Shown here: positions 40,022-58,746 of the stretch, one piece after another
Position numbering within the stretch: the first letter of the stretch is position 1
Layout: each line of letters opens with the position of its first letter
From: Pseudomonadota bacterium
GTDB lineage: Bacteria; Desulfobacterota; Desulfobacteria; Desulfobacterales; RPRI01
DNA: 64,000 bases
NCBI GenBank assembly: GCA_018901125.1
Contig: JAHIFE010000136.1
Coordinates: forward strand, 1 to 64,000
Reading direction: 5' to 3'
Notes under the pieces: generated by a model
Told to the model about the DNA's origin: nothing
What the model saw: only the letters and a program-made list of their open reading frames with translations
The model's database searches: none
Translations under genes and position numbers: made by a program

Positions 40022-43000
40022 ATTTTCTCAACAGTTACAGCACAGGCTTTGTATTCAGCAGTCAAACTGACCGGGTCAAATGCAGGATTGGTCAGCCAGT
40101 TGGCATTGCCTTCCCTGAAGTGAAAGGCCATCCACACCATACCGGCAGGAACCTGATCCGTAACCTTTGCTTTTACTACCACTTCCCCACGCCTTGATTT
40201 AACCCGAACCTTCTCACCGTCTTTGATGTCCAACCTTTCGGCATCCGCATAAGAAATGTCTGCGGTTTCTTCGCCTAAAAGTTCATTAAGACCCTTGGTA
40301 TGGCCGGTTTGTGTACGGGTGTGATAATGGTAAAGCCTGCGTCCAGTACTTAATACGAAAGGATATTGTGCATCCGCCACCTCAGCCGGTGGAGTCCATT
40401 CCACAGGAGTAAGGTTTCCGAGACCGCATGTAAAACAGCCGTCCTTGTGTAAAGTCATAGTTCCTGTATGCTCCAATGTCGGTACTGGCCATTGGAGACC
40501 GTCTTCTTCAATGCGTGAGTACTTGATACCTGTTAATTGAGGCGCCAGAACAGATATTTCATTGTCCCAGAGTTCCTGAGCGCTGTCTGATTCCCAGTCT
40601 TGCCCCATCCGCTTTGCGATCTCTTTGAATATCCACCAGTTCGGCTTGGATTCTCCCGGCGGCTCTTTAACAGTGCGAACACGGCTCACTCTGCGTTCAC
40701 TGTTTGTAAATGTTCCGTCATTTTCGCTCCAGGCCGCAGCAGGTAATATCACATGGGCAAACCGGGTTGTTTCGGTCGGGAAAATATCCTGGCAAACCAT
40801 AAATTCGGCGGAAGAAAGGCAATGTTCAACATGATGTATATCAGGTTCTGTGTTGGCAAGATTCTCACCAAAAACATAGAAGAATTTTATTTTACCATCA
40901 ACAAGACCATCCATCATGTGCGGCATCATCATTCCATTTTTCTCAGGAAGTTTCACTTTCCAGGCAGCTTCATATTTAGCCCTCATCTCCGGGCTTTCCA
41001 CTTTCTGGTATCCCGGAAAAACATTCGGTAATGCACCCATATCACAAGCGCCCTGAACATTATTCTGGCCTCTTAACGGGTTTACTCCTCCGCATTCAAA
41101 GCCCACATTGCCAAGAAGCATCTGAAGGTTGGCGCAGCTTAAAACATTATTTACACCGCATGTGTGCTCAGTAATGCCAAGGGTATACATCAGCATAGCA
41201 GGTTTTACAGAGGCAATACCCCTTGCCACCTTTCTGATCATTTCAGGATCTATACCGCATATTTGCGCCGCACGTTCGGGAGAATACTCCATTACTTTTT
41301 CTTTAAGTTCCTCAAATCCAACGCAGCATGAGTTAACATAGTTTTTATCATAAAGATCTTCTGTTATAAGAACATTCATAATCCCGTTAATAAGAGCTAT
41401 ATCACTTCCTACCTTAAGAGGCAAATGAACTTTTGCCAACTTGGCCAGATCGGTTCGCCGCGGATCAAAAACGTAGAGCTGTGCACCGTTTAATACCGCC
41501 CTTTTTACCCCGGCAGCGGCAACCGGATGAGCTTCTGTCATATTTGAACCGATTACAAGAATCATTTTAGCTTTGGCAAAGTCTGAAAAAGAATTTGTCA
41601 TTGCACCTGAACCAAAAGCAATCGCCAGACCGGCGACGGTAGGAGCATGTCACGTACGCGCGCAGTGATCGATGTTATTTGTGCCGATCACCGCGCGAAA
41701 TAGTTTTTGCATCTGGTAAGAGTCTTCGTTGATGCTGCGGGCGCAACTGACACCCGCAACGGCATCAGGCCCGTGTTTGGCAATAGTCTCTTTTAGTTTG
41801 CTTACTATAAGATCAAATGCTACATCCCATGTAGCTTCTTTAAACTTGTCTCCTTCTCTTATCAGCGGTACTTTAAGTCTCTCATCGGAATAAATGAAAT
41901 TAAATCCGAATCTGCCCTTCACACACAGATGTCCGTAATTGGGAGGAGCATTCACACCGTTTACCTTGACAACCCTGTCGCCGACCTTTTCAAGAGAAAG
42001 CTGGCATCCCACTCCGCAGTAAGGACATGTAGTTCTAACCTTCTCCAGCTTCCATGGGCCGGGAAGGCCCTCGCTCTTTTCGGAAAGTGCTCCGGTGGGA
42101 CAGTTTGCCAGGCAATAACCGCAGGAAACGCAGCGGTCGTTAATACTTGGGGTATAAACAGGCGGTCCGATCTTTTCTGCGTCTTCGGTTTTTAGCAGAT
42201 CGAAGGCATATTGAACCTGATATTGAGAACAGCCGTTTAAACATTTGCGGCAGGTGATGCATTTGTTGGGATCTATGGTTATCAAAGGATGTTTATCTAT
42301 AATGTCATATTTTCTTTTCTTCCATGACTGCAAATTATCCTGATCTACCCCATATATCGTAGCATATTCGCGTAACCTGCATTCAAAAGCATCCTGACAA
42401 CCGCAGGAAAGACATCTTGCAGCTTCGTCTTTGGCCTGAACCTCGGTAAACACCAATTCAGCTTCTTCAAAACTTTTAATTCTTTGGGCAGCCGGAAGAA
42501 TGGGTGTTTCGTAGCGCGGACGGCTTAGTATGCCTTCAAAATCAACCTGATCAACATCTTTTAGTTTGCCTTTTGTTATATTAAACGTTCTGACTTCAGA
42601 AGAAACAACTCCTTGACTCATATATTTGTGCATGGATAAAGCGGCCTCACGCCCGTCAGCGCTTGCCTGAATAACTGTTCTCGGGCCTCTTAAGAGATCT
42701 CCGCCTAAAAACAGATACGGAATACATGATTGAAAGGTGTTTATATCCGTTTCGGGAATTCCTTTTTTCGTAAAAGTTGCGTTTTTAAGTTCCGTTTCCT
42801 GTTTCAAAAAATCAACATCGGAAAATTGTCCGATGGATACAATCGCCTGATCCGCTTCAAGAATTGTCTCGGAACCTTCAATAGGAACCGGTCTCGGACG
42901 ACCGCTGCTGTCTGCGGCTTTCAGTTCATTTTGAAGATATTCAACTCCGGCAAAAACTCCTTCTTTTGATATAATCCTTGTAGGTGTTGCCAGGATATGT

Positions 43001-44136
43001 ATTTTTATACCTTCTTCCTCGGCATCATGAATTTCCTGCGGATTAGCCGGCATCTCGGCTTTGGTCCGGCGATAAAGCATTATTACTTCCCGGGCACCCA
43101 TACGAAGGCAGCTTCTGGCGGCATCCATGCCTGTATTTCCATTTCCGATTACTACCACCTTTTTACCTACAGGCGGCGTATCTCCTGAGGCGTTTCGAAT
43201 CAGAAATTCTATGGCGGGCATTACTCCGCGAATTTCTTCTCCGGAAATACCAAGCTTATAAGAGCTCCATGCTCCTATGGCCAGAAATATCGCATCATAA
43301 CCCTCGTTTCTTAATGATGCCAGAGTAAAATCTTTTCCGAATTTCTTGTTTATATTCACATTAACGCCAAGATCCAGAATCTCCTGTATTTCCTGGTCAA
43401 GTACGGCTTTTGGCAGACGATACTCTGGAATACCGTATCTTAACATACCTCCAAGTTTGGGCATGGCATCATATATTGTAGCAGAGTGGCCTTTAAGACG
43501 CAGATAATAAGCGGCTGCAAGTCCTGCAGGACCGCCTCCTATTATGGCCACTTTTTTGCCGGTATCAGGCGGGGGCACCGGTGTTACCCTGATTCCGCGC
43601 TCGGCTGCATAATCGGCCGCAAATCTTTTCAGATCCTTGATGTTTATAGCATTTTCCGCACGATTACGGCGGCATTCGATCTCACAGGGATGCGGGCACA
43701 CCCTTCCGAGTGTTGCTGCAAAAGGAGTCTTTTCTTTTATCAGCCTAAGGGCTTCTATGGGATCGCCTCTTTCAATATGAGCAATATAACCCTGAATGTC
43801 CAGGTTTCCGGGACAGGTCATATGACATGGCGATACACAATCACCATAATGCTGCTCAAGCATTAATGTTAAGAGGCCCTTGCGGGTTTCCAGAACAAGG
43901 GGAGAATCAGTATGTACGACCATTCCCTCTTTAACCTTGGTGGAACAGGACGCAATAAGCTTATCTTCTCCCTCCACCTCAACCACACAAATCCTGCAAG
44001 CCTCTTCGGGTTTTAATAAAGGATTATGACAAAGAGTCGGAATGAAAATTCCTTCCTGGGCGGCAGCCTGCAACAGGGTATTTTCAGATTCCGTTGTAAC
44101 AGTTTGACCATTAATAGTTAAAGATACTTTAGACAT
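40018..44136 (-). CDS. fdhA: Selenocysteine-containing formate dehydrogenase alpha subunit fused to GltD-like FAD/NAD(P) module (UGA=Sec at 41650-41652)
   Basis: ORF track splits it in two (41650..44136 and 40018..41601). Junction reads [37 protein letters not shown], matching the formate dehydrogenase Sec site; N-term 2Fe-2S, GltD-like, 4Fe-4S, then molybdopterin domain. Confidence 0.95.
41615..41652 (-). promoter_or_regulatory. Bacterial SECIS element
   Basis: UGACAUGCUCCUACCGUCGCCGGUCUGGCGAUUGC: GUCGCC/GGCGAU stem with GGUCU loop starting at nt 22 from the UGA. Confidence 0.9.
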
Positions 44137-44307
44137 ACATCGCTCCGCTTTCGATATTTTTTGTTATTTATTGAAGCTTACCGCAATAAAACGCAGGGAA
44201 TGCCCCTGCCTTTGCGGTGCAACAGTTTTTAATATTATTTATCAAAATGTTATATGTCAAAATTGTCATAAACAAGTCAAGAAAAAATAAACCGCTTTTT
44301 AAAAAAT

Positions 44308-44433: not shown

Positions 44434-44491
44434 AAGTAACGGGCTTTAAGCAGCCGCGACTTTTTGCGGTCTGCTGAAAAAGGTTTATTGG
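44434..44491 (-). other. attC site 1 (leftmost)
   Basis: RC: CCAATAAACCTTTTTCAGCAGACCGCAAAAAGTCGCGGCTGCTTAAAGCCCGTTAC. Confidence 0.8.
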
Positions 44492-44494
44492 GCG

Positions 44495-44929
44495 CTATTT
44501 GGTATCCTTGCCATTTTGAGCTGGACCTGACAGATCGCTACCCTGCCCCTTTTTTCGAGCTTCAATGAAAGCAGAGGAACCGAAGTAGAATGCAACGACT
44601 ACTCCAACTACAGCGGTGAAACTTCCGATGAGGGTTTCGGCAATCTGTGGAAGCTTCACGGAGTCCTTAGTGAAGTAGGCGACAATACCCACAAGAACGA
44701 GGTATTAAACGACGACTGCGCCTGCGATCGCGGCACGTAATCGAGCATCCTTGCCTGACGATCCATTGGCAGGATCGTCAGGATCCGCCATAAAATGAAA
44801 GAAGGTGATTACGCCCGCCGCCACTGTGCAAAAACTCAGCGGTACTGGGTTGTCAAATGCATATACGAGCCCAAGTCCCGCACCAATAACTGCCATGATC
44901 CAGATTGCTGCACGATAGTTTTTGTTCAT
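44495..44929 (-). pseudogene. Small membrane protein with in-frame TAA (44705-44707)
   Basis: MNKNYRAAIWIMAVIGAGLG...AAIAGAVVV*YLVLVGIVAYFTKDSVKLPQIAETLIGSF; both halves in the same frame. Confidence 0.65.
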
Positions 44930-45053
44930 ATAGCCTCTCGTTGTTTCGTTGACGATGATGCGCCCAACGGGCGCGAGATGAGCGGAATTTTTATGCAGCG
45001 CCTCAGAGACATGAAGCGAAGCATAATGGCTCTGAGATGCGGAGTAAAAGTTT

Positions 45054-45114
45054 CCGCCCCACAGATAGGCGTTCGTGCCGCCTACGGCGGCACGAACGCC
45101 TATCTGTGGGGCGG
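45054..45114. repeat. Perfect 29-bp inverted repeat with 3-nt loop adjoining attC 2
   Basis: ccgccccacagataggcgttcgtgccgcc-TAC-ggcggcacgaacgcctatctgtggggcgg. Confidence 0.95.
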
Positions 45115-45151
45115 CATGCTGTTTGCCATCCACACAAGCGACAGGTTATAA
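45088..45151 (-). other. attC-like site 2
   Basis: RC: TTATAACCTGTCGCTTGTGTGGATGGCAAACAGCATGCCGCCCCACAGATAGGCGTTCGTGCC. Confidence 0.65.
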
Positions 45152-45404
45152 AATCTTTGCTTTTCTAAATTTCAAAAAAACCAATGACCTACGTAATACA
45201 TAGATTGAATAAGCTAATAATATCATATAGGTAATGTTATCTTTTAAGCCTAAATCAAAAAAACAATCAGCGCCTACAAAAATGACTAAGAGAATCTTCC
45301 ACTTAGGATAAATGCTTGAATCTTGTGCATCATCACAAAAATTGATTTCATGGTGGTCAGAAACATCAAAAATGTATGTTGGACCGTTTCCGGAATATTT
45401 TCCA
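45152..45404 (-). CDS. Possible small membrane protein cassette ORF lacking an obvious ATG start
   Basis: Reverse frame reads GKYSGNGPTYIFDVSDHHEINFCDDAQDSSIYPKWKILLVIFVGADCFFDLGLKDNITYMILLAYSIYVLRRSLVFLKFRKAKIL*. Confidence 0.35.
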
Positions 45405-45406
45405 TT

Positions 45407-45473
45407 TTATAACGATTTGATAAGCTGCAAAAATGCGGTTTCTATTTTTATCAGCTTAATTAATTGGTTATGC
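45407..45473 (-). other. attC-like site 3
   Basis: RC: GCATAACCAATTAATTAAGCTGATAAAAATAGAAACCGCATTTTTGCAGCTTATCAAATCGTTATAA. Confidence 0.75.
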
Positions 45474-45550
45474 GCTGCCGTTCCATTGATCATCAACTTT
45501 TCAAGGATGTCTTTCCCACGGACTATCCATAGGGTGCACACACCCTCTGC

Positions 45551-46534
45551 TTACAAGTCGTTGATAGTCCATGCATCAACGAAAAACACGGAACCATCGT
45601 CCAAGGGAGAGGCCCCAAACAGATAATAGTCACAGTTGGTGCCCAACGTAGTAGCTTCATCATCCCAATCGTCATACAACGAACAGACAAGAAACTCAGT
45701 AAACAAGCGGGAATCAATTGCTTTTCTAAAAGACTCATGGGTTGATATCGGTATTCTTATGTCCGATTCTGGATTTGAGTGAAAGGTATTTCCCTTCATT
45801 TCTCCGATTGTCTCCCAAATATCAAGAAACCCTCCGCTTTCACAAGTCAAGTTGAAAAGAAATCTATCCCATCTATCGAAGCCAGCATCAATAATTACGT
45901 TTCTTATTTTGCAAATGTCAATTCTTGAGAGAATCTTGTTGACCTCAGCTTCTACTGATTTTACTGACCCGGAAAGGCCAAGCGACACGGCAGATTCCTT
46001 TTCTTCTTGCAGTTGGTTTAGTTTATCCGACAAGTAGGCTAATTCTTTCTGTATTTCTCGTGTAGAGTTTGTGATGTAGTCGATCGCGGAATTGCCCGTT
46101 GAATAGTCCCCCTCAACATAATAGGCAAGATTAGCCTCATTTCCTGCCTGAGGCGTCTTACTGATTTTCTTTGCTATTGAAAACTCTCCTGGCTTGGATG
46201 GATAACAGTCTTCGGAGGGTTTGAGAATCGGCGGTGGCATGGTGGATGATGAATTGTTTCCGATGAAGCGATAAAGACTGTTTCTATATTGCTGTAGCTC
46301 CAATTTTGTAAAGCCTTTGCTTTGGCTCGGTCTGCTGTCATATCGGTCATGATGTTCAAGGCACAGGAAGGCCAAATTGTCCATCTTACTATTTGAAGAA
46401 TTATGATCAATATGTGCTAATTGTCCGGCTTTCGTATCAGAGTCATAATTCAAACCGAAACACAAACAGCAACGGCGACCGCTTTTCAGCAAAACCTCGG
46501 CCTCTGTCTTTTCTGATGTTTTTTTTCTCGCCAT
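45551..46534 (-). CDS. HNH endonuclease-like protein
   Basis: CCLCFGLNYDSDTKAGQLAHIDHNSSNSKMDNLAFLCLEHHDRYDSR. Confidence 0.75.
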   Translation of the reverse strand: MARKKTSEKTEAEVLLKSGRRCCLCFGLNYDSDTKAGQLAHIDHNSSNSKMDNLAFLCLEHHDRYDSRPSQSKGFTKLELQQYRNSLYRFIGNNSSSTMPPPILKPSEDCYPSKPGEFSIAKKISKTPQAGNEANLAYYVEGDYSTGNSAIDYITNSTREIQKELAYLSDKLNQLQEEKESAVSLGLSGSVKSVEAEVNKILSRIDICKIRNVIIDAGFDRWDRFLFNLTCESGGFLDIWETIGEMKGNTFHSNPESDIRIPISTHESFRKAIDSRLFTEFLVCSLYDDWDDEATTLGTNCDYYLFGASPLDDGSVFFVDAWTINDL

Positions 46535-46565
46535 CTGTTTTTCACCAGTTAATGATTATCGCCAC

Positions 46566-46617
46566 GCATAACTTTTAGTTCAGCGGTTTACCCGCTGTAA
46601 CGACTGGTTGGTTAAAA
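46566..46617 (-). other. attC-like site 4 (short)
   Basis: RC: TTTTAACCAACCAGTCGTTACAGCGGGTAAACCGCTGAACTAAAAGTTATGC. Confidence 0.7.
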
Positions 46618-46699
46618 TAAGAAACTGATAATTTGAAGAACGCCCTGAATTCATATCATATTCACAATTCAAGGTATACCCCCCTTCTCTTCGGTGATT

Positions 46700-47722
46700 T
46701 TATCGCTCATCATCCTCTTTCCCGGTAAGCCTTTTTACTTCTCGGTCAAAGTCGGAGATATATTCCCTGTCTTGAACAACCCGGAATTTTTCATATTCCT
46801 TAGTGGCCAGCGTCTGGGCGACTTCATGGCTGATGCTGCCTGAATTGGTAAGAATTTCGTATTCGCTGAACTTTAAAAAGGCATTAAGCTTCTCTATCCA
46901 GTCTTTCATATACATGGGCTTGTTCCGCACTGCCTGCAATTCCGCAAAATCGAGGTACATGGTCACGATGCGGTTCAAGTGGTCAAGTTCCGGTTTGTCC
47001 AGATAATTCTTGGCAATAGAAACATCGCTCGGCATGATCTTTCCTGCCGGCCCCTTACGCCATGAAGTCAACCCCAGATTGGGTTTTGTGCTGTCGGCCC
47101 GTTTAGCAATGATTTCGGCTGCGGTTTGCCCGGTAATAGCAAAATGCAGTTTGTTTTGAACAGTCGCAAAGAATTTTTTGGTGTCTGCCACTTTTGGCGA
47201 ATAGTCAATTGACGTTGCGTAAATATCGGTAATTTTCTGATAGGCCATCCGCTCGCTGGATCGGATGTCCCGGATTTCTTCAAGCAAGTCATCAAAAAAT
47301 CGCGTACTGAAACGGGAGCCGTACTTAAAGCGGTCGCTGTCAATGGCAAAGCCTTTGTGGATATATTGCTGGAGGATAGAAATAGCCCATTGGCGAAACT
47401 GCGTACCCCGCTCGGAATTGACCCGGTAACCAACGGCAATGATGGCTTCCAGGGAATAACATTTGACCGTTCGGGACACTTCCCGGCTGCCTTCCATCTG
47501 AACTACCGAGAAATCCTCGGCAGTTGCCGATTCGTCCAGTTCCTTCTCCTTATAGATATTTTTAAGGTGCAACGAAACATTGTCGGCACTGCATCCAAAC
47601 AACTCCGCCATCCTCTTTTGCGGTAACCAGATATTTTCATTGGCATACAGTACTTCGATATTGATTTTTCCGTCGGCTGTTTGATAGACGGTAATCTGAT
47701 TGTCCGGGAGTTTTTTCTTCAT
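46700..47722 (-). CDS. RhuM family protein
   Basis: LPDNQITVYQTADGKINIEVLYANENIWLPQKRMAELFGCSADNVSLHLKNIYKEKELDESATAEDFSVVQMEGSREVSRTVKCYSLEAIIAVGYRVNSERGTQFRQWA. Confidence 0.95.
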   Translation of the reverse strand: MKKKLPDNQITVYQTADGKINIEVLYANENIWLPQKRMAELFGCSADNVSLHLKNIYKEKELDESATAEDFSVVQMEGSREVSRTVKCYSLEAIIAVGYRVNSERGTQFRQWAISILQQYIHKGFAIDSDRFKYGSRFSTRFFDDLLEEIRDIRSSERMAYQKITDIYATSIDYSPKVADTKKFFATVQNKLHFAITGQTAAEIIAKRADSTKPNLGLTSWRKGPAGKIMPSDVSIAKNYLDKPELDHLNRIVTMYLDFAELQAVRNKPMYMKDWIEKLNAFLKFSEYEILTNSGSISHEVAQTLATKEYEKFRVVQDREYISDFDREVKRLTGKEDDER

Positions 47723-47825
47723 TCAACACCTTCCGCAAAAGTATGAGGCTCTATTGTATACGATCCTATCAAATCCTTCATATTCAAAATACAAGGTTTG
47801 AGCCCATTATGCTCTTTTTTCCCAG

Positions 47826-48917
47826 TCAATCTTCCTGTTCTGCTTTTGAAGGTATGGATTCGTCAATCGGAGTTTTCCTTATCGCTCGTAACTGAACCAT
47901 TTTGGTATCGCCATATGGAGTCAACTTCCAATATGTGCCCGTATCTTTAACGCTTCGTTGTTTAACATTTTCCCGAATTAGCCCCAGTGCCCTCAATTGA
48001 ACAATGCAGGTATCGATATCGTTGTCCTTGAATTTAAAATCATACAATTCTTTTCCTTTCAGTTGCTTTCCCTGGGCAAATTCTCTTCGAGCAACTTCAG
48101 AAAAGAATCTGTTGAAAGATACGCGCAATGAATGGTCTGATGCTTCATTTATCATGCTCGGTGCTATGGCAGCAAAGATTTGATTCCACGTTGGTAGTAA
48201 TTGGCCCTCATATTTTGAATCATCATATGAATGGAATGAGCCAGTTCCCGCCTTGAATTTGCACTTGATTTCAAATTGTTCATCGCCTTGGACTAAATCT
48301 TCAGTTCCATCAGGGGGATTGTGGAGAGATTCCGCAGCCTCTGCCTCTAATTGGGCAACACGTTTCTTGAGAGTCAGTATTTCTGAAATTGTGGCATCTG
48401 AAGGGATTTGATCAGCCCGGACCCATCCAACGGTAGGCTTCCGTTTAACCGTACTCGTCAATCCAACAATAACCCGGGCCTTCAGTTCCTCTGATGAATT
48501 CCAGTAGACACAGGTATGTTTTTTTTCCACCTTTGCCCTGAATGCTTTAAGTTTATTCCAAGCACTATCAATAGTTTCTGTTTTCTCACGGGGCAAATTG
48601 TCAGGATTCTGATGCAAGAAAGGGATTACAGGTTTCCTTGTCTGCACGGCATAATCATATTCTTTTTCCGTATAGCCAATTCCAGCTTCATCCAGCGAAC
48701 CATATCTGCCGGCTATGATCAAGACATAATAATCAGAACCATCAATAACATCTTTGATTAGCTGCCAAGCAGTCTCATCTGCGGCAGGAAATAATTCCAT
48801 CCCTGCGGGCATATGATTTAATTCGAGCACTGCCTTAAGCACTGCTTGTCTTTCGTCAATCAAATCACGAAACGTTGAACTTATAAAAACCTGATATCTC
48901 TTTTCCATCGTAGTCAT
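47826..48917 (-). CDS. DUF4062 domain-containing protein
   Basis: RYQVFISSTFRDLIDERQAVLKAVLELNHMPAGMELFPAADETAWQLIKDVIDGSDYYVLIIAGRYGSLDE. Confidence 0.93.
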   Translation of the reverse strand: MTTMEKRYQVFISSTFRDLIDERQAVLKAVLELNHMPAGMELFPAADETAWQLIKDVIDGSDYYVLIIAGRYGSLDEAGIGYTEKEYDYAVQTRKPVIPFLHQNPDNLPREKTETIDSAWNKLKAFRAKVEKKHTCVYWNSSEELKARVIVGLTSTVKRKPTVGWVRADQIPSDATISEILTLKKRVAQLEAEAAESLHNPPDGTEDLVQGDEQFEIKCKFKAGTGSFHSYDDSKYEGQLLPTWNQIFAAIAPSMINEASDHSLRVSFNRFFSEVARREFAQGKQLKGKELYDFKFKDNDIDTCIVQLRALGLIRENVKQRSVKDTGTYWKLTPYGDTKMVQLRAIRKTPIDESIPSKAEQED

Positions 48918-48939
48918 CCTTAAATACTTTTTTACCTTC

Positions 48940-48995
48940 GATCAACGCAAAAATCAGCCGTAGCGTAGCGATTGGCTGTATTGATTTTGTTAGAC
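48940..48995 (-). other. attC-like site 5
   Basis: RC: GTCTAACAAAATCAATACAGCCAATCGCTACGCTACGGCTGATTTTTGCGTTGATC. Confidence 0.85.
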
Positions 48996-49008
48996 CATAA
49001 TTAAATAA

Positions 49009-50034
49009 TTACTGTTTTGCCCCTGCCTTAACTAAGAGTTCGATCAGGTATTTAGTCTTCGCCTCAAATTCCGGATTTGTACCCGGGCTAAACTGCTTTC
49101 CCATCTCTTTCACGATATCGAGTGCAGTTTGTCCCTTGTCATTCCATTTATATTTATTTGGGTTGGCACGAATATTTGGATCTGCTTTCCAGTCGAGCAA
49201 AAGCTTAACTATCTCCACTTTACCGCTCAACGCTGCCGAGATTAACGGCGGGGAGTCCTTTGACACCCCGTCTACCGACGCACCATGCTCAAGGAAAAAC
49301 TGTGCACTTTTTGTGTTCCCTCTAAAGGCTGCAGTTGCAAGCGGAGTTCTTCCTTCAGCATCTGTTATGTCCACTTTGGCGCCATGTTTCAGTAAAAAAC
49401 TGGCAAGCTCAATATTGTCCGACTCCGCAATGCTATGAAGTGCTGTGCACCATTCTATATCGTGCGAATTTATATCAGCACCCTTAGCCAGCAGTTCACT
49501 GGCTTCGGCAACTGTCGTAGCCTTCACCAGCGCGGGCGTATTCTTTCTTTCCAAATTATATTGATAACACGACTCAACACCGTTTTTGTTTTCCCTTCCG
49601 CATTCTATCCATATACCTTTAGTCGAAGATTTCAATATGTACAAAGAGTCTGAGAATCTGTATTCAGTAACCCCAAGACCATCGACAATTATAGTTTTGT
49701 CCTCGGTGATTGTTAATTTTCCATTTTTAGCCTGGACATAAATCACGCGTGTCTTGGTATTGCAAGTCTGCTGAATACCTAGGCTTAATGTCTTTCTATC
49801 GAATGCATAGAAGGTATCATAGCCGTTTCTCAGTTTGTTGTGTGCGCTAGCTATTTCTCCGCTAAATTCTGAGTAACGTGAGTTGCCGTCGTTCCATGCA
49901 ACGAAAGGCTCAACACTAAACTCCCCGTTTATGGAATCACAGGTAACACGTAGGCTTGAAATTCCCCAATCCGCGAAAGCGGTACTTGAGAAAAAAGCCA
50001 TGATGAGTATAGTTGTGATAGCTCTCACACGCAT
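49009..50034 (-). CDS. Secreted ankyrin-repeat protein
   Basis: Signal peptide MRVRAITTILIMAFFSSTAFA; ankyrin repeats DIEWCTALHSIAESDNIELASFLLKHGAKVDITDAEGRTPLATAAFRGNTKSAQFFLEHGA. Confidence 0.88.
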   Translation of the reverse strand: MRVRAITTILIMAFFSSTAFADWGISSLRVTCDSINGEFSVEPFVAWNDGNSRYSEFSGEIASAHNKLRNGYDTFYAFDRKTLSLGIQQTCNTKTRVIYVQAKNGKLTITEDKTIIVDGLGVTEYRFSDSLYILKSSTKGIWIECGRENKNGVESCYQYNLERKNTPALVKATTVAEASELLAKGADINSHDIEWCTALHSIAESDNIELASFLLKHGAKVDITDAEGRTPLATAAFRGNTKSAQFFLEHGASVDGVSKDSPPLISAALSGKVEIVKLLLDWKADPNIRANPNKYKWNDKGQTALDIVKEMGKQFSPGTNPEFEAKTKYLIELLVKAGAKQ

Positions 50035-50063
50035 TTTGAATTACCTCTTTATCTTTATGTGAT

Positions 50064-50120
50064 GTCTAACGCTGAAATCAGCCGCGCGTTTTTTGCGTCG
50101 GCTGAATTTTGTGGTTATAC
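50064..50120 (-). other. attC-like site 6
   Basis: RC: GTATAACCACAAAATTCAGCCGACGCAAAAAACGCGCGGCTGATTTCAGCGTTAGAC. Confidence 0.9.
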
Positions 50121-52031
50121 CGTTTCTCCCTTATCATGAAGTTTTATAGTATATGACTTTTCTTTAATGCTATTTATTATTTCCAAGCTCTTTAATTTAT
50201 CTAATTCCTTAATTGTCATGAATCTTGGAATAGATTCATATATAAATAATTCTTCATTGTTTTCCCAAATGAATTCTGGATATGATGTAGAAACGATAGG
50301 AACAATGTATTTAACTTTTTCTGGAATTTGCTTAGATAATGATTTACTATTCTTAATAAACCTTGCCTTACTCTCAATTTCTTTTAAAAATTCGAGCAGT
50401 TTCTTTTTTCTGAACTCGATTGCGCCGTATTCCCCAAGGATTGAACCTTGAGATACGCTTAATGATTTGCATTCTATTAAAAACAAAACATCGTCAATTA
50501 TGAACGAAGCATCGATTTCTTTCTTTTCCCCTTTTTCATTTGTTAATTCACCTTTATGAAAATGGGATTCTTTTCCAAATATCGAAATAATTTTCTCATT
50601 GATAATTCTCTCGTAAGATTCTGATATCTTATTGGCATATTCACCATCTAAAGATTTAAAACCTTCAAGAAAAGATGTCAGTATCATGTTAAGTGAAGTG
50701 CAATCTACAAGAATCTTGTCTTTTGTTATTCTCATAAAAAGAGAATGATTTAACAATTCATTCTCAAGATTTTGGTAATTCCCAGTTTGATAAAACAAAA
50801 AGTCATATGCTGCTTTAAACTTCTTATAGGTAGGTTTCCCACAATCAGGAAAAAATTCATTATAAGTATTATTAAAGCAGTCAAAATATCCTCGAATATT
50901 TTGAGCATCATTATCTATAAGTAGATAGCCTCGTTGGAGTATCTGAATTGCGGTTTTTAATTCGTAGCCATCATCAAGTTCATTAATCAAGTAATTAAAA
51001 GAAGATCCCATGCTACTTGAAAAGTATAATATAATAGACAAAAACTCTTCAATATGAAATCCGTATTTTATCATTATAATAGGGTTTAATTCTTTCATAT
51101 ACAGGTAATAATCCGAAAAGCCAAAAGCATATGCAAAGAAATTGGTGGTATCTTCTTCATTTTCAAACTTTAATTGTTTAAACATATCTTGCTTATTGTT
51201 ATCAAAGTTTGGTTGTAGAGAAATAAGAATAAATTTATCGTGATCTTTTTTACCTTCATCTGAATAACCACCTATTGTTGTCAACAATGTTTGAGAATGA
51301 CTTCTGTCATCAAATAAGTTTATTAAATATTCTAAATTAGGATCGTCTACTTTTGTCGTAAATCCAAACTGATGATCAGGGATAATTGTTCCTCCCTTTA
51401 ACACCACTCTTTTATTATTTCGAATGTATACAAAAAAAAGACATAAACCTTCAAGTTTATAAATATCGTTGAGGACTTGGATTACAGTCTCAGGTATTTT
51501 TTCAACAAACACATTTTGATAGTTTAAATGTTTGATATAGTTAGGGACAAAGAAAGATAATGAATTATGCTCTATAGATGTGAAAATATCTCTTTTCGTT
51601 CCGAACATCAATATTACTTTTTTTAATAACTCATAACGACTAAAAAAAGTATTTGAACTAAAATTATAATCTTTCACTGGATGGATTCGGCGGTGCCAGA
51701 AAAATAATTCATAAGATGTATATTTGGAACAAATATTGATGATAATCTCTTCAAGGTTCTCCTCAAGGATTTTAAAAAACACATCATTGTCATCTATATT
51801 TTGAATGTCGATTTTATTGCTTTTGCATATTTCGTTGAAAAGGGATAAAAAATTCACCATAGTGGAACTGTTGCTAAGTAATCTTTCTTTAATACACCGC
51901 ATGTGAAGAATGCTAGCTAATTCTGGTAGAATAATGGATTCATTATTCCCCTGATTTTTATCAAGGCAGCATTTCTTATATTTTTTCCCACTTCCACATG
52001 GGCATTTATCATTTCTTCCAATTTTACGCAT
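50115..52031 (-). CDS. SEC-C motif protein with C-terminal PD-(D/E)XK nuclease-like region
   Basis: MRKIGRNDKCPCGSGKKYKKCC; C-term KKEIDASFIIDDVLFLIECKSLSVSQGS. Confidence 0.8.
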   Translation of the reverse strand: MRKIGRNDKCPCGSGKKYKKCCLDKNQGNNESIILPELASILHMRCIKERLLSNSSTMVNFLSLFNEICKSNKIDIQNIDDNDVFFKILEENLEEIIINICSKYTSYELFFWHRRIHPVKDYNFSSNTFFSRYELLKKVILMFGTKRDIFTSIEHNSLSFFVPNYIKHLNYQNVFVEKIPETVIQVLNDIYKLEGLCLFFVYIRNNKRVVLKGGTIIPDHQFGFTTKVDDPNLEYLINLFDDRSHSQTLLTTIGGYSDEGKKDHDKFILISLQPNFDNNKQDMFKQLKFENEEDTTNFFAYAFGFSDYYLYMKELNPIIMIKYGFHIEEFLSIILYFSSSMGSSFNYLINELDDGYELKTAIQILQRGYLLIDNDAQNIRGYFDCFNNTYNEFFPDCGKPTYKKFKAAYDFLFYQTGNYQNLENELLNHSLFMRITKDKILVDCTSLNMILTSFLEGFKSLDGEYANKISESYERIINEKIISIFGKESHFHKGELTNEKGEKKEIDASFIIDDVLFLIECKSLSVSQGSILGEYGAIEFRKKKLLEFLKEIESKARFIKNSKSLSKQIPEKVKYIVPIVSTSYPEFIWENNEELFIYESIPRFMTIKELDKLKSLEIINSIKEKSYTIKLHDKGETV

Positions 52032-52050
52032 TTTGCCTACTTTTATTACT

Positions 52051-52111
52051 GTATAACGGACTCTTCAGCGGGCGCGGTTTTTTGCGCTCCGCTGCAAGAG
52101 CATGGTTGGCT
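52051..52111 (-). other. attC-like site 7
   Basis: RC: AGCCAACCATGCTCTTGCAGCGGAGCGCAAAAAACCGCGCCCGCTGAAGAGTCCGTTATAC. Confidence 0.9.
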
Positions 52112-52144
52112 CCTTTCCTGTCTTATCATAGAGTTCTGTCATAG

Positions 52145-53023
52145 CTAAATCGGTGGTAAAACCTTATACGCAATATCAATCTGATCATCACAGGACCCAA
52201 GCTTATGCCAGTTCTGGTTTGATATCACTCGGCAGACAACACAGAAGCGCGTAGATACGTAAAGGTCACTCAAAACCATATGTAACCTCTCACCAGTTGT
52301 ACGCGATCCACCTACGTTTGCTATTAACCACTCAATTTCATACTGGTCTGGCCTGAAAGTAGGATCAACCTCAGCTGTGATGGAAATGGAATCTCCACAC
52401 CGAAGGTAGCTATTCTTGTCTCGAGAGTAGTCAACTATTGCAGGACCATCGGGATTCCGGTTGGAAGATGAAAGGTAGACAACATGTCCAAGCGAGTCCA
52501 AAATTCTTACAACAGTCGGCACGTTGTAAAGGCTTGCCATATTAACACGAGCGTAGTAGGTCTTCAGGCCCTCTACCACGTCCATCGAGTAACAAAGAAC
52601 TCGATAGGCATCGTGCACAGAAACCGGATTTGCGTGAGATAGTGCGTTTCGCGGTGTAACGAGACGGCTGAGAAATGTTCGCGCAGAATCATTGCCTTGG
52701 GGGAAAATATCACTTAACGCATCTGCGAAGAGGTCTCTGTACAAAGTAGGATTGCATATTATCTTAATCTGGTCTGCCAAGAAGGCGGCATCAATCGGAC
52801 GGACAAATCGTGCGGGCTCTTGTGATCTACGCTCGGAAAGTGCTCTATGAAGGCTTGAGTTGATCACTCTGTTTCCATCTGCTTTCTGAGCGTCGAGATA
52901 GTCCTGCCCATATGCCTCAGTCAGTTTGGTATCAATGAGTCTCCTAAGCCAGAGTTCAAGCCCTTCGATTGCACGCTTGCAGCCATCCCGGATTTGGGCT
53001 TCAGATATTGTGTAAAGTGGCAT
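52145..53023 (-). CDS. Swt1-like HEPN domain-containing protein
   Basis: MPLYTISEAQIRDGCKRAIEGLELWLRRLI...LSRLVTPRNALSHANPVSVHDAYRVLCYSMDVVEGL (R-x4-H HEPN motif). Confidence 0.7.
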   Translation of the reverse strand: MPLYTISEAQIRDGCKRAIEGLELWLRRLIDTKLTEAYGQDYLDAQKADGNRVINSSLHRALSERRSQEPARFVRPIDAAFLADQIKIICNPTLYRDLFADALSDIFPQGNDSARTFLSRLVTPRNALSHANPVSVHDAYRVLCYSMDVVEGLKTYYARVNMASLYNVPTVVRILDSLGHVVYLSSSNRNPDGPAIVDYSRDKNSYLRCGDSISITAEVDPTFRPDQYEIEWLIANVGGSRTTGERLHMVLSDLYVSTRFCVVCRVISNQNWHKLGSCDDQIDIAYKVLPPI

Positions 53024-53091
53024 GTTTATTCCCCTTAAAAAGCACAATTACATCCCCATGCTTATGAACCCAAATAGGCCCAGTCAATTCG

Positions 53092-53165
53092 GGCCAACGT
53101 TGCAAATAACCGGTGCAAATGGAGCGCAGCGGAATTTGCACCCGTGTTAATTTGTCTTGTTAGCT
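53092..53165 (-). other. attC-like site 8
   Basis: RC: AGCTAACAAGACAAATTAACACGGGTGCAAATTCCGCTGCGCTCCATTTGCACCGGTTATTTGCAACGTTGGCC. Confidence 0.85.
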
Positions 53166-53732
53166 CTTTTGTTGCGCCCGAAGTTGATTGTAAACTTCTT
53201 TGGCATTTTCTATTAATTCAAATTTCGTTGCATTAGATCCGCCCATTCCTGGAAAGCTGTTCCCACCGAAGAAAGCCATTATTTGATTTTCTTGACCGAA
53301 ATTAATTGTGCCACTTTTATCTGATTTTTCAGAGAGAGAAACATCGCTAAGGCTTTTCAAATTTAGGCTTTTGACGCTCTTACTAAATAGACCGGAAACA
53401 ATAATTGCCCTTTGGTCCGTGAGACCATAAAATGTTTTTGCTCGCTTTTTTGAATCGAAAACAAACCGACCAAAAATCATATATAGGCCGACCAAAACGA
53501 AAGGAATGCCGAATAGAGGGAACACAATCCCCGCCGCTCCGGCTTTATCTTTTGGGATTGCCAGAGCCATTGTTTCCCAGAAAATTGCAAATCCACCCCA
53601 AAGCAGACTGAACGGAATCATGAATACATCAGAACCACGGAATACCGTCCCTTGTCTTGGCATTCCGGCCCACAATAATTTCTCACCTGAATCCAATTCT
53701 CTTTGTACTACTTCTTTTGCTTCGTAATTCAT
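53160..53732 (-). CDS. PH (bPH-like) domain membrane protein
   Basis: LDSGEKLLWAGMPRQGTVF, two TM helices, KTFYGLTDQRAIIVSGLFSKSVKSLNLKSL. Confidence 0.75.
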   Translation of the reverse strand: MNYEAKEVVQRELDSGEKLLWAGMPRQGTVFRGSDVFMIPFSLLWGGFAIFWETMALAIPKDKAGAAGIVFPLFGIPFVLVGLYMIFGRFVFDSKKRAKTFYGLTDQRAIIVSGLFSKSVKSLNLKSLSDVSLSEKSDKSGTINFGQENQIMAFFGGNSFPGMGGSNATKFELIENAKEVYNQLRAQQKS

Positions 53733-53745
53733 TATTCTCCTTGAG

Positions 53746-53805
53746 GGCTAACTAAAAATTAAGCGGGCGCGGCTGTTTGCGCTCCGCTTGAATCATGGGT
53801 TAGGT
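53746..53805 (-). other. attC-like site 9
   Basis: RC: ACCTAACCCATGATTCAAGCGGAGCGCAAACAGCCGCGCCCGCTTAATTTTTAGTTAGCC. Confidence 0.92.
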
Positions 53806-55050
53806 CGCATTCCCACCTACTTTTGTTTGCATGGCATTCAATGTTTCGCGATGATGATCAACTATCGCTGCGTCACCCGCACTTGAGAGTGGAACGAACT
53901 CAAAACCAGCTGCAAGCATGCTGATATCGGTACGATTGACGATCTTAGCATAAACCGCCGTCAGGCAATTCACGCGCCGACCCTCGACTTGAGTGTCAGT
54001 ATCTTCGCGGTGCACTTCAATGAATGGAGAATCATTAAAAGCACCGCGAAGGAGCGACTTCATGGTTTCATCGGATGCAATCTCTTCAAGCAGCCGTTCT
54101 TGGGCTTGCACGAGGGAGTCAAACGGCCGAATAGCTACACCGGCAATTGTCAATTTGCCATGCCACCCCTGATCTTCGATATCGCGCCGCTTTAGCGCCA
54201 CACCGGTCACGACACCGGAATTGTCGCAGACCCACAACACTAACTCGATACAGGCATAGCAGAGACCCAGTTCGAGGCACTGAACAAACAACTCGTGTGG
54301 AGTGAACCCTTGTTTTGCACGCCGATGCTCGTCAATCCGGTCTGCTACGACGCGAAGGTGTGGAGAAATATCCGTAAGCGGCGCCCCCTTCAAGTATTCC
54401 AGTGTGATGTGTTCGATGTTGTCACCAAAAGCAGCTTGATTGGCCACGGGTGCTCTCTTTGGGAACGCTTTTGCCACCGCTGGCCTAAGCATCGCTATGT
54501 CTGCATCGAATAGCAGCGCGGTCTCCATTTTTTCAACGCGCCGATCCAGTCGGAAGCCAACGAAAGCCGCCAAAATTGAGATTGCAAGAAACGCCGCTAT
54601 TTTATCGTAATTCCCTAACGCGAGCGCTATTGTCGCAAAGATTCCTGCGAGGAATGAAGACATATACATAAAATGGATTCCGGACGTATAGACCACCAAG
54701 TCCGGAACGTCCTTCCAGCCGAACTTATTTCGCAGAACCGAAACATAGAGATACTCAGCCTCGAGAGAGGTTAGCCGATACTCTGGAAACATTCTCTTCA
54801 GCCGTATCCTATAACTTTCCTCAGGGCCACAGCTGAGATCCTTCAGCCTATGGATTATCGGAAGTACGAGAGCATCATATAAAAAGAAAAATGCCGCGCC
54901 CCCGGACAATGCACAACCTGTCAGGGGTATTGCGCCAATGTCTTTGATGACCTTTGCAGACGTCTCTGGAAAAAGAAACGAGAAATAGAAAAAACCCACA
55001 AACCCGATGAGAATAAAGCGAATGGCGTCTGAGACGCTTGTTTGTTCCAT
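53800..55050 (-). CDS. Hypothetical membrane protein (cassette gene)
   Basis: Start likely MEQTSVSDAIRFILIGFVGFFYF; several TM segments; no family recognised. Confidence 0.65.
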   Translation of the reverse strand: MEQTSVSDAIRFILIGFVGFFYFSFLFPETSAKVIKDIGAIPLTGCALSGGAAFFFLYDALVLPIIHRLKDLSCGPEESYRIRLKRMFPEYRLTSLEAEYLYVSVLRNKFGWKDVPDLVVYTSGIHFMYMSSFLAGIFATIALALGNYDKIAAFLAISILAAFVGFRLDRRVEKMETALLFDADIAMLRPAVAKAFPKRAPVANQAAFGDNIEHITLEYLKGAPLTDISPHLRVVADRIDEHRRAKQGFTPHELFVQCLELGLCYACIELVLWVCDNSGVVTGVALKRRDIEDQGWHGKLTIAGVAIRPFDSLVQAQERLLEEIASDETMKSLLRGAFNDSPFIEVHREDTDTQVEGRRVNCLTAVYAKIVNRTDISMLAAGFEFVPLSSAGDAAIVDHHRETLNAMQTKVGGNAT

Positions 55051-55101
55051 TGCAGTCCTCCTGGAAAACGCTTGCCACAATTACTGACCTGAACCTGTGC
55101 G

Positions 55102-55163
55102 GCCTAACGCGGCTGGTCTGGGGCCGTGAGGTACGAGCGGACCCTATCACCAGCATGTTATAC
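55102..55163 (-). other. attC-like site 10
   Basis: RC: GTATAACATGCTGGTGATAGGGTCCGCTCGTACCTCACGGCCCCAGACCAGCCGCGTTAGGC. Confidence 0.8.
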
Positions 55164-55622
55164 GTCATACTTGTCATTATCTCCGTGACAATCAATAGAG
55201 TGAACTCTCGTCAAGAACTTGCCCTTTGGGACTATTTCATGGGCAGTACCTGGGAGGACAACAATTTCATCTCCTTGTTTCATAGTTTTCACAGTACCGT
55301 CCACTTTGATATTCATCTCACCTTCGAGCACAGTGTAGATTTCTGTGGCGAGTAAATGTTTGTGAGCCTCTTGCTGTGTGTTTTCATTGCAGGTTGCAAC
55401 CTCCAAGCCGCCGCATCCTGTTTCAAGAATTGTCGACTTACCATCAGGCCCAGGTGGATTCCAATCGAGATTCTGTAACGGTAGCGACTTGTCTGGACGC
55501 ATTTTATTTGCCAGTATCTTGCGTCCTCGATTGTTCGGCTTTGCAAGTCTTTCGTCTGATGCTGCCTTATCTTTGCGTATGATCACATACGAAACAGAGT
55601 GTTTGCTATCAATAGCATTCAT
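55158..55622 (-). CDS. Cupin domain-containing protein
   Basis: HKHLLATEIYTVLEGEMNIKVDGTVKTMKQGDEIVVLPGTAHEIVPKG; start likely MNAIDSKHS. Confidence 0.85.
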   Translation of the reverse strand: MNAIDSKHSVSYVIIRKDKAASDERLAKPNNRGRKILANKMRPDKSLPLQNLDWNPPGPDGKSTILETGCGGLEVATCNENTQQEAHKHLLATEIYTVLEGEMNIKVDGTVKTMKQGDEIVVLPGTAHEIVPKGKFLTRVHSIDCHGDNDKYDV

Positions 55623-55648
55623 AAAAACCTCTCCTAATTGAATCGTAT

Positions 55649-55815
55649 AATGTGCGAGTTGACCGGCGAATTTTAGCCGAATAATGGGCACGAAGTGGCC
55701 GATTATTCGGGAAAATTTGCCGGTCGAACGATTGGTTCGCGACGCGAAGCGGAGCGGACAAAGCGTTCGACGCAGGCAACTCGCACATTCGCGCCGCGTA
55801 GCGGCGCGAATGTGC
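55649..55815. repeat. Nested inverted repeats next to attC 11
   Basis: aatgtgcgagttg/caactcgcacatt (55649/55777); gaccggcgaattttagccgaataat/attattcgggaaaatttgccggtc; gcacattcgcgccgc-GTA-gcggcgcgaatgtgc (55783-55815). Confidence 0.9.
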
Positions 55816-55865
55816 TTTTCAGCGGCCGCGGTTTTTTGCGGTCCGCTGAAAAAGACTTGTTATTT
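55774..55865 (-). other. attC-like site 11 (with extra palindrome on the R' side)
   Basis: RC: AAATAACAAGTCTTTTTCAGCGGACCGCAAAAAACCGCGGCCGCTGAAAAGCACATTCGCGCCGCTACGCGGCGCGAATGTGCGAGTTGCC. Confidence 0.7.
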
Positions 55866-56354
55866 GCGGACAACGGAAAACCCCTTGATCGCCGAAAAGA
55901 CTGAACCCCACTCTTTGTCTGGTAATTCTGAACCGCATTTAGCACAAACAGAGTCGTCCTTTTCTGGCACACCATCAGGGTAAACTGATAGCCAGGTAAC
56001 CACCTTAGCCTCGTAATCAACTGAATAATATTCGTCGCAAAATCCAGAAGTACCAAAACCAATATTAGTAAGTTTACACACAGGGCAACGCTTTTGCCAT
56101 CCAGCTTCAGCCGAACCAATACAGGAACGAATAGAAGCCCATTCTGGCGCATTGAACACCTGCATGGTATCGTCTTTATTGTCAAGCTGATCGACCAAGT
56201 CAAGCAACCTCAAAATCAATGGCGCTCCCCATTCAGCAGCCTCAGGATCAGCAAGCATCGCATTCCATTGTTCGATAACTTGATAGTAGCCATAGTTACC
56301 AGGTCCAATCTTCAGTTCAACCGATTGACGTTTATTTACGGCATCTTGATACAT
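55860..56354 (-). CDS. Hypothetical Zn-binding-like protein (cassette gene)
   Basis: 164 aa, CPVC...CDEYYS...CAKCGSELPD cysteine pairs; stop codon inside attC 11 core. Confidence 0.6.
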   Translation of the reverse strand: MYQDAVNKRQSVELKIGPGNYGYYQVIEQWNAMLADPEAAEWGAPLILRLLDLVDQLDNKDDTMQVFNAPEWASIRSCIGSAEAGWQKRCPVCKLTNIGFGTSGFCDEYYSVDYEAKVVTWLSVYPDGVPEKDDSVCAKCGSELPDKEWGSVFSAIKGFSVVRK

Positions 56355-56367
56355 GATCTACCTATAC

Positions 56368-56429
56368 AAATAACGGTGAGTTCACTTAGCCGCATGCTGT
56401 TTGCGGTCAAGTGAAACGATTTGTTAACG
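56368..56429 (-). other. attC-like site 12 (rightmost)
   Basis: RC: CGTTAACAAATCGTTTCACTTGACCGCAAACAGCATGCGGCTAAGTGAACTCACCGTTATTT. Confidence 0.9.
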
Positions 56430-56440
56430 AAAGGTATTTA

Positions 56441-56944
56441 TTATGTTTTATCGTTTTCTTTCTTTTTTACTACAAGTGAAGCAGTGTTTTCAAGTACGCG
56501 AAGAAATTCCTTCTGAATCTTGTTTTGCAATTCATATTGATCACCAAAGGCTTGGGGAACATAGAACTTATCCATATCGGTTTGCTTCAATGTCGGATAA
56601 CTTAAATCCTTCGCAATTTCGGTTAGGAGTTCCAGCCATGTATGATCCCTCTCCTGAGTATATGGCTGAGCAAGTAGAGCATAATACTTGTGCCAAAGTT
56701 CCACTATCCTCAAATTATTTGAAAACACAATATCAAGCGTATTCAACACTTCAACCATTGCATAATTTGGAGGTATTGATTTTCGGTGAGCCATAAGCAA
56801 TAAGAACGCCCGGTGTTTTGCGTCACGTTTTTCTTTGCGACTTTGATACCACAAGGTAATAATAACGGCAGCAATTGGGCCAATAATCACAGCAAGAATA
56901 TTCATGATTTTAATATCCATTATTATATTTTTAATAGTTAACAA
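56441..56944 (-). CDS. Hypothetical membrane-anchored protein (DUF6680-like), first cassette gene
   Basis: MNILAVIIGPIAAVIITLWYQSRKEKRDAKHRAFLLLMAHRKSIPPNYAMVEVLNTLDIVF. Confidence 0.6.
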   Translation of the reverse strand: MLTIKNIIMDIKIMNILAVIIGPIAAVIITLWYQSRKEKRDAKHRAFLLLMAHRKSIPPNYAMVEVLNTLDIVFSNNLRIVELWHKYYALLAQPYTQERDHTWLELLTEIAKDLSYPTLKQTDMDKFYVPQAFGDQYELQNKIQKEFLRVLENTASLVVKKKENDKT

Positions 56945-57390
56945 GTGATTCTACGGATCTGGAGATCTTAACATTTTGTATGATCACCGGAAAGGTTTAG
57001 AAATAAATTTTTAATCTTTAAGTTAAATTACAAAATGACTATGGTTTGTTTTATCTTAAATTTGAACTATATATATCCTATTGACGATGTTTTTGCAATA
57101 ATAAATATATTTCTAACCTTCCAGATATCATGATAGTTATCAAAATATTAGGAAAGAGGAGATATTCTTTATAACGTTATATTGATTACCGGATAAAACC
57201 TTTTAAAAGTATGAAATCTTTTATATTGATGATTTAAGGAAGTTATCTTATATCTGAAAGAATTCAATTTACCTGCAATAATTCTGGTTTGATAATCTCA
57301 GCCAGGCTGGCTATTCTGAAATGGTTTCTGAAATACTTGCCGGATGATTTTCCCTGCATGGGAAATGCCGATGTGAATAATGAGCTATTA

Positions 57391-58746
57391 TTACTGCCCG
57401 TTTTTTTTCTCTTTCTTAAGTTTGCGCCATTTCTCAAGTCTTTGCCTGATAGTTTTTTCATAACCTCTTTCGGTTGGAAAATAAAAAAGAACTCCATCAA
57501 GTTTATCAGGAAGGTATTCCTGGAAAACATAATCTTCTTTATAGTCATGAGCATATTTATAGTCTTTGCCATAGCCCAGCTCTTTCATAAGAGAAGTAGG
57601 AGCGTTTCTGATATGGAAAGGTACCGGAAGCGCTCCTTCGCTTCTTACGGCTTTCTGAACACGGCCATACGCGGTGTAAATGCTGCTGCTCTTGGGAGCG
57701 GTTGAAAGGTAAATTGCGGCCTGTGCGAGAGCAAGCTCGCCTTCGGGTTGTCCGATAAATTTAAAAGCTTCCATTGCGCTTACTGCAATGCTTAAAGCAT
57801 ATGGATCGGCATTTCCGATATCTTCCGATGCAAATCTTATCATTCTTCGTGCTATAAAAAGCGGATCTTCACCACCAGACAGCATGCGGGCAAGCCAGTA
57901 TATGGCAGCATCCGGATCACTTCCTCTCATGCTCTTATGAAGCGCCGATATCAGGTTATAATGTTCCTCACCTTTTTTGTCATACAACAAAGCTTTCTTC
58001 TGAAGGGCTTTCTCCAGATCTTTGAGCGTTATACAGACTTGTTCATTATCTTGTGTCTTCTTATTTCCTGTTGCTATTTTAGCGGCTATTTCAAGGCTGT
58101 TTAAAGCCATCCTGGCATCGCCGTCCGATATTCTTACAAGATGGGATAATACTTCTTCTGAAAGCGAAAGATTTAATTCTCCAAGCCCTCTTTCTTTATC
58201 TTTTAAGGCACTATCAATTATCCGGGCGATATCATCATCGGAAAGGGTTTTTAGAGTAATGACTCTGCATCGTGAAAGAAGAGGAGCAATAACCTCGAAA
58301 GAAGGATTTTCGGTTGTTGCGCCTATTAATGTTATCAGACCGCTTTCAACATGGTACAGGAATGCATCCTGCTGGGCTTTATTGAATCTGTGAATTTCGT
58401 CAACAAAAAGAATTGTTTTTTTTCTGAAAAGTTTAAGCTGGTTTTTTGCCTCTTCAATAACCGCTCTTATTTCCTTAACCCCGGAAAGGACTGCTGAAAA
58501 ATGCATAAAATAAGAGCTTGTTTCACGGGCAATAATTCTTGCAAGAGTTGTTTTCCCACAACCCGGAGGACCCCAAAGAATCATTGAAAAAACCTGGTCT
58601 TTTTCAAATGCATGCCTGATCAATGTGCCTTCGGCAACAACATGCTCCTGGCCTGCAAACTCATCCAGATTTATTGGGCGCATCTTCTCGGCAAGAGGCT
58701 TTGAGTCGTTTCCAGTTTTTTCAGCGCCGTATTCAAAAAGATCCAA
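57391..58746 (-). CDS. rarA: Replication-associated recombination protein A (RarA/MgsA AAA ATPase)
   Basis: MRPINLDEFAGQEHVV, ILWGPPGCGKTTLARIIA, FVDEIHRFNKAQQDAFL. Confidence 0.95.
   Translation of the reverse strand: MDLFEYGAEKTGNDSKPLAEKMRPINLDEFAGQEHVVAEGTLIRHAFEKDQVFSMILWGPPGCGKTTLARIIARETSSYFMHFSAVLSGVKEIRAVIEEAKNQLKLFRKKTILFVDEIHRFNKAQQDAFLYHVESGLITLIGATTENPSFEVIAPLLSRCRVITLKTLSDDDIARIIDSALKDKERGLGELNLSLSEEVLSHLVRISDGDARMALNSLEIAAKIATGNKKTQDNEQVCITLKDLEKALQKKALLYDKKGEEHYNLISALHKSMRGSDPDAAIYWLARMLSGGEDPLFIARRMIRFASEDIGNADPYALSIAVSAMEAFKFIGQPEGELALAQAAIYLSTAPKSSSIYTAYGRVQKAVRSEGALPVPFHIRNAPTSLMKELGYGKDYKYAHDYKEDYVFQEYLPDKLDGVLFYFPTERGYEKTIRQRLEKWRKLKKEKKNGQ

Follow-up and report, generated by a model that had tools for sequence, protein, structure and literature searches.

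A chromosomal cassette array without an integrase in cis (CALIN) between fdhA and rarA, in a genome with an intact integron integrase on another contig

IntegronFinder defines a CALIN as a group of two or more attC sites that point the same way and lack a neighbouring integrase; CALINs occur in many clades, hold almost 6 attCs on average and have been proposed to be degraded integrons (PMC9024848). Gene-less cassettes are known from the superintegrons of the Vibrionaceae, and in Vibrio most of them have promoter activity (PMC11014356). The window that we analysed, a stretch of 64,000 nucleotides, belongs to a 74-kb contig (C192) of a draft genome and carries, between fdhA and rarA, about 13 minus-strand open reading frames, most of which are followed by a short imperfect hairpin (Table 1). 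We conclude that this locus is almost certainly a CALIN: about 13 cassettes form a chromosomal array that stems from the lineage's own integrons and has been cut off from the integrase. It is made up of about 11 cassettes with genes or gene remnants and two gene-less ones.

To avoid circularity in the detection of attC sites, we built a covariance model, R1, from 15 aligned attCs that all come from other organisms (class 1 integrons, an array on a Gemmatirosa megaplasmid, a Kovacikia plasmid and one attC from a member of the same order). With filters off, R1 gave nine matches with E<0.2 in the window, all on the minus strand at 45407–56426 and clustered within 11 kb, attC 7 being the best of them. 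The sole further match at this level lies on the plus strand at 55.7 kb, inside the attC of a gene-less cassette; the rest of the window, outside the array, had none. The attC cluster that the earlier note had proposed (with about 12 sites) was thus confirmed by an independent model and withstood the covariance-model check by which that note would have had it judged. The coordinates of the array, the orientation of its genes, the RYYYAAC...GTTRRRY-type cores at its sites and its two flanking genes are likewise as the note described them.

Table 1. Features of the array and its flanks, in the order of minus-strand reading (positions in the window)
Feature	Position	Strand	Evidence or remark
rarA	57391-58746	-	array flank
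Leader before cassette 1, candidate relic attI	56930-57058	-	crossover CACTT^GTTAA, about 56945
Cassette 1 gene, DUF6680	56441-56911	-	Pfam PF20385 E 1.9e-34
attC 1	56368-56434	-	R1 E 0.016; 96.6% over 59 bp to G005:C24 attC
Cassette 2 gene, small zinc-ribbon-like protein (weak)	55860-56354	-	ORF; Pfam only below cut-off
attC 2	55811-55870	-	92.6% to G005:C24 attC; partial R1 match 12.5 bits
Gene-less cassette A	55645-55811	-	23-bp palindrome, then ~135-nt hairpin attC, AAT...ATT cores
Cassette 3 gene, cupin	55158-55622	-	PF07883 E 1.6e-8
attC 3	55102-55163	-	R1 E 0.16
Cassette 4 gene, 416 aa	53800-55050	-	Pfam: no family
attC 4	53746-53805	-	R1 E 3.2e-4
Cassette 5 gene, bPH_2-like (weak)	53160-53732	-	Pfam
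attC 5	53092-53165	-	R1 E 6.1e-4
Cassette 6 gene, Swt1-like HEPN	52145-53023	-	Pfam, below cut-off
attC 6	52051-52111	-	R1 E 0.0064
Cassette 7 gene, SEC-C motif	50115-52031	-	PF02810
attC 7	50064-50120	-	R1 42.2 bits, E 4.2e-8
Cassette 8 gene, ankyrin repeats	49009-50034	-	PF12796
attC 8	48940-48995	-	R1 E 0.10; 80-90% to DNA on C12, C231, G008:C194
Cassette 9 first gene, DUF4062	47826-48917	-	PF13271
Cassette 9 second gene, RhuM family	46700-47722	-	PF13310; PADLOC candidate PDC-S05 E 3e-146
attC 9	46566-46617	-	R1 E 0.027
Cassette 10 gene	45551-46534	-	HNH-like N-terminus inferred from weak PADLOC nuclease matches
attC 10	45407-45473	-	R1 E 0.016
attC 11	45092-45151	-	88% over 59 bp to attC at C70:4260-4320
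Gene-less cassette B	44962-45096	-	palindrome + hairpin attC ending GTTGGGC
Cassette 12 gene, membrane protein	44495-44989	-	broken: in-frame TAA at 44705-44707
attC 12, degenerate, terminal	44437-44490	-	85% to G005:C24 attC; hairpin z -4.1
fdhA	41650-44136	-	array flank

Sites 3, 8 and 9 are weak in R1, and sites 2, 11 and 12 lie below its reach or are only partly seen by it; support for the latter three comes from DNA identity to other attCs. As a group, attCs 1, 2, 8, 11 and 12 match sites of other arrays at 80–97%. The attC on contig C70 that is matched by attC 11 was found by R1 at E 0.0016, and attC 12 matches the same site as attC 2, located on contig C24 of G005, the closest relative. 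At the crossover of attC 2, ATT replaces GTT (GCAC^ATTCGCG, compared with the intact GCAC^GTTAAC of G005:C24). By eye, several of the array attCs have a GA.CGCAAA-type stem in common, and the remaining ones differ. A strict box-plus-fold scan recovered the class 1, Gemmatirosa and Kovacikia attCs yet just three of the window sites, and was too strict; an Rfam search of the window gave no match. The stem arms covary in an alignment of 33 sites drawn from both the window and the rest of the genome, with 86.6% pairing compared with 66.5% after shuffling and about 30% when slid, and, for the same set, with covariation of 0.481 compared with 0.160; because the alignment was fitted to R1, these figures lean towards the structure.

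Several genes of the array are defence-like, which would suit a hypervariable or defence island whose unrelated genes are separated by chance GC-rich hairpins (terminators). We regard such an island as scarcely credible: the core boxes, their spacing and the covariation fit attC, the same hairpins adjoin other genes elsewhere, and R1, run with default filters on 132 kb of control rarA/fdhA loci of relatives, found nothing at E<=2. For most of the sites, the R1 matches in the window refute it. The earlier note had also placed a hairpin between every pair of genes. This is correct for most of them but not for the DUF4062 and RhuM genes, which no attC separates and which we therefore count as one cassette.

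The flanking genes fdhA and rarA are chromosomal, which sets the locus apart from transposon- or plasmid-borne integrons of the class 1 type. DNA similarity to G005, a genome of the same genus (RarA 90% and FdhA 89% identical in protein sequence), breaks off towards fdhA at 44302 and towards rarA at 57376. The two genes reside on separate contigs in G005, with neighbours unlike those in the window, and in G001, G002 and G006 another gene follows rarA. To judge from these assemblies, therefore, the gene order at the locus is not conserved, contrary to the outcome that the earlier note had named as a refutation, and more than a simple insertion separates the window from its relatives. The genome is a draft with 1.2% contamination, and contigs of another organism could have been binned into it; this is very improbable for the array, which lies inside the 74-kb contig between genes so close to those of the congener and shares attCs with this same relative. 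In the fdhA frame itself, a stop follows NIDHCART at 41601–41652 and the frame then stays open, which would fit a candidate selenocysteine formate dehydrogenase.

The absence of IntI that the earlier note had reported holds for the 74-kb contig, on which the IntI profile TIGR02249 found no match and both flanks of the array lack convincing intI remnants, but not for the genome. Contig C29 encodes an intact IntI (450 bits against a cut-off of 265), 50% identical to IntI1, that keeps the catalytic residues R137, H268, R271, H294 and Y303 together with the integron-specific patch, and the array is therefore integrase-less in cis only. C97 and C184 carry broken intI copies, C181 has a fragment at its end, and R1 detected at least 18 further attCs on about 16 other contigs. 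The assembly consists of 241 contigs, so the intact intI may lie near the array or far from it. Beside the intact IntI gene (C29, 5027–6742), the end of a group II intron (RF00029, 44.8 bits) lies in the gene-less cassette upstream. The regions C97 10971–11784 and C184 4503–6850 are decayed platforms with broken intI, cassette genes and attCs, and have a common leader with TTGA(C/T)CTGATAATCA. IntI proteins of another size class, about 395–540 aa long, are encoded at L079 (1928–3286) and other loci; in the one that we inspected, a normal IntI is preceded by an N-terminal extension of about 115 residues with no Pfam match. Among named relatives, Desulfobacteraceae bacterium Eth-SRB1 has an IntI homolog that is 80% identical and contains a stop codon within the matched stretch, with no attC within 10 kb of it.

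The cassettes are preceded by a 129-bp leader, which aligns with a score of 82 to the 140 bp that precede cassette 1 in the G005:C24 array (maximum of 60 in 1000 shuffles; 70 for the best unrelated locus). Both leaders end in the same CACTT^GTTAA crossover, and the G005:C24 array is without intI. When the window leader was sought in the other fetched loci, including those with intI, only G005:C24 matched. The leader is probably a relic attI, a reading that has to be inferred because no intact intI was seen next to the motif. A complete integron would have intI, attI and cassettes together; here intI is only on other contigs, and the attI is at most a relic.

The two gene-less cassettes are the only surprise of an otherwise known kind of element. 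The DNA after sites 2 and 11 begins exactly at the crossover with a palindrome of 23–25 bp (TTCGCGCCGC..GCGGCGCGAA or TTCGTGCCGC..GCGGCACGAA). Cassette A, with attC 2 included, folds with a z of −9.2 over 231 nt, and copies of it are found on C154 (95%), on C170 (87%, partial), where the copy directly follows an attI-like leader, and on G002:C206 (71%). On C154, a PIN toxin gene and a likely antitoxin gene directly follow the copy (1234–1982). Cassette B can be aligned to the C34 cassette that follows the leader (score 178, compared with 45 when shuffled), and this C34 cassette is nearly identical to the one beside intI on C29; the C29 copy is split by the group II intron, and C34 has the same leader and cassette minus the intron. 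The occurrence of the same cassettes in several arrays of one genome is strong sequence evidence for past cassette exchange. The palindrome pattern is present at six places in this genome, five of them in established integron contexts and the sixth (C34) behind the same leader as on C29, and is absent from nine congeners. Judged by their ends, the gene-less pieces would be whole cassettes whose attCs work. Such pieces are placed immediately behind attI-like leaders (C29, C34, C170 and G002) and at boundaries between cassettes, begin right at the crossover and have giant attCs, in some cases with compensatory AAT...ATT cores. They might form a specialised, self-spreading class that serves as movable regulatory units (promoter or terminator) or is favoured in the first cassette position; we consider this unlikely.

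These shared attCs and gene-less cassettes are also what would be expected if the array were the far end of a complete sedentary chromosomal integron, displaced from its integrase when attC-attC or homologous recombination rearranged the genome, and not an old array that lost its own intI, and the separation of fdhA and rarA in the closest relative points the same way. The leader argues against such a displacement: the array has its own, also present in the intI-less array of G005, which suggests a former attI of its own, and beside none of the intI genes examined was it found. We hold the displacement to be possible, if somewhat doubtful.

The cassette genes are largely uncharacterised, as the earlier note had said: several of the proteins have no known family, and others gave weak or below-cut-off matches. 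The protein of cassette 7 is possibly a PD-(D/E)XK nuclease, given a weak PADLOC match at residues 497–528; for that of cassette 10, Pfam gave no family and a PDB search was empty. Among 193 other genomes of the order, the DUF6680 protein occurs in none, and the bPH_2 protein has distant matches in three. The cassettes thus appear to encode patchy, partly defence-like proteins, the patchiness being that of DUF6680 and bPH_2, the two tested. Plasmid homologs of three cassette proteins were absent or distant. Phage defence genes are often found in integron cassettes. Elsewhere in the genome, adjoining genes for an EcoRI-type methylase and a GmrSD/HNH protein lie just before an attC (C41, 117–2242), a possible restriction-modification-like cassette, and the intI-less congener array has a TIR-domain gene between attCs (G005:C24, 4294–4983). 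The window array is partly decaying, because its last cassette gene has an in-frame TAA, with ORFs 44705–45133 and 44495–44692 occupying one frame split by this codon. By eye, the ~300-bp cassette at 45410–45150 looks frameshifted. With site 2 lacking GTT, with the weak sites and with the decayed cassette genes, part of the array may be inert.

Taking the locus as a CALIN cut off from its integrase, we propose that IntI would have captured each cassette by recombining the folded bottom strand of the cassette's attC, and that the array was separated from the integrase probably by loss of intI and/or by rearrangement. The attC bottom strands are probably still substrates for IntI in trans, and the cassettes could probably still be excised or shuffled by the intact IntI of another contig. 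The C29 IntI is the presumptive enzyme acting on the array, and the order of loss is likewise presumed.

The 'undescribed mobile system' of the earlier note does not stand, CALINs being a defined, common class and the genome having an intact IntI, decayed platforms and arrays that share attCs and gene-less cassettes; the concept of the integron is unchanged. What the locus adds, in a Desulfobacterales-like (sulfate-reducer-like) lineage that is uncultured, is a well-delimited CALIN with shared cassettes, an intact integrase in trans and a candidate relic attI. It offers a natural case for asking whether an orphan array can still be recombined in trans, and yields a few genes that are patchy and in part defence-like.

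Like other CALINs, the window array has co-oriented attCs and no integrase nearby; it differs in holding about 14 sites against a mean of almost 6 (PMC9024848) and in belonging to a clade that surveys cover poorly. With the sedentary chromosomal integrons of Vibrio and Xanthomonas it has in common chromosomal cassettes, mostly of unknown function, and attC families repeated within the genome, whereas intI and attI are absent in cis, the array is of moderate size, and several platforms and relics coexist in one genome. Its gene-less cassettes resemble those of the Vibrionaceae in having an attC and no gene (PMC11014356), but differ from them in the 23–25-bp palindrome at their start and in their very long attCs.
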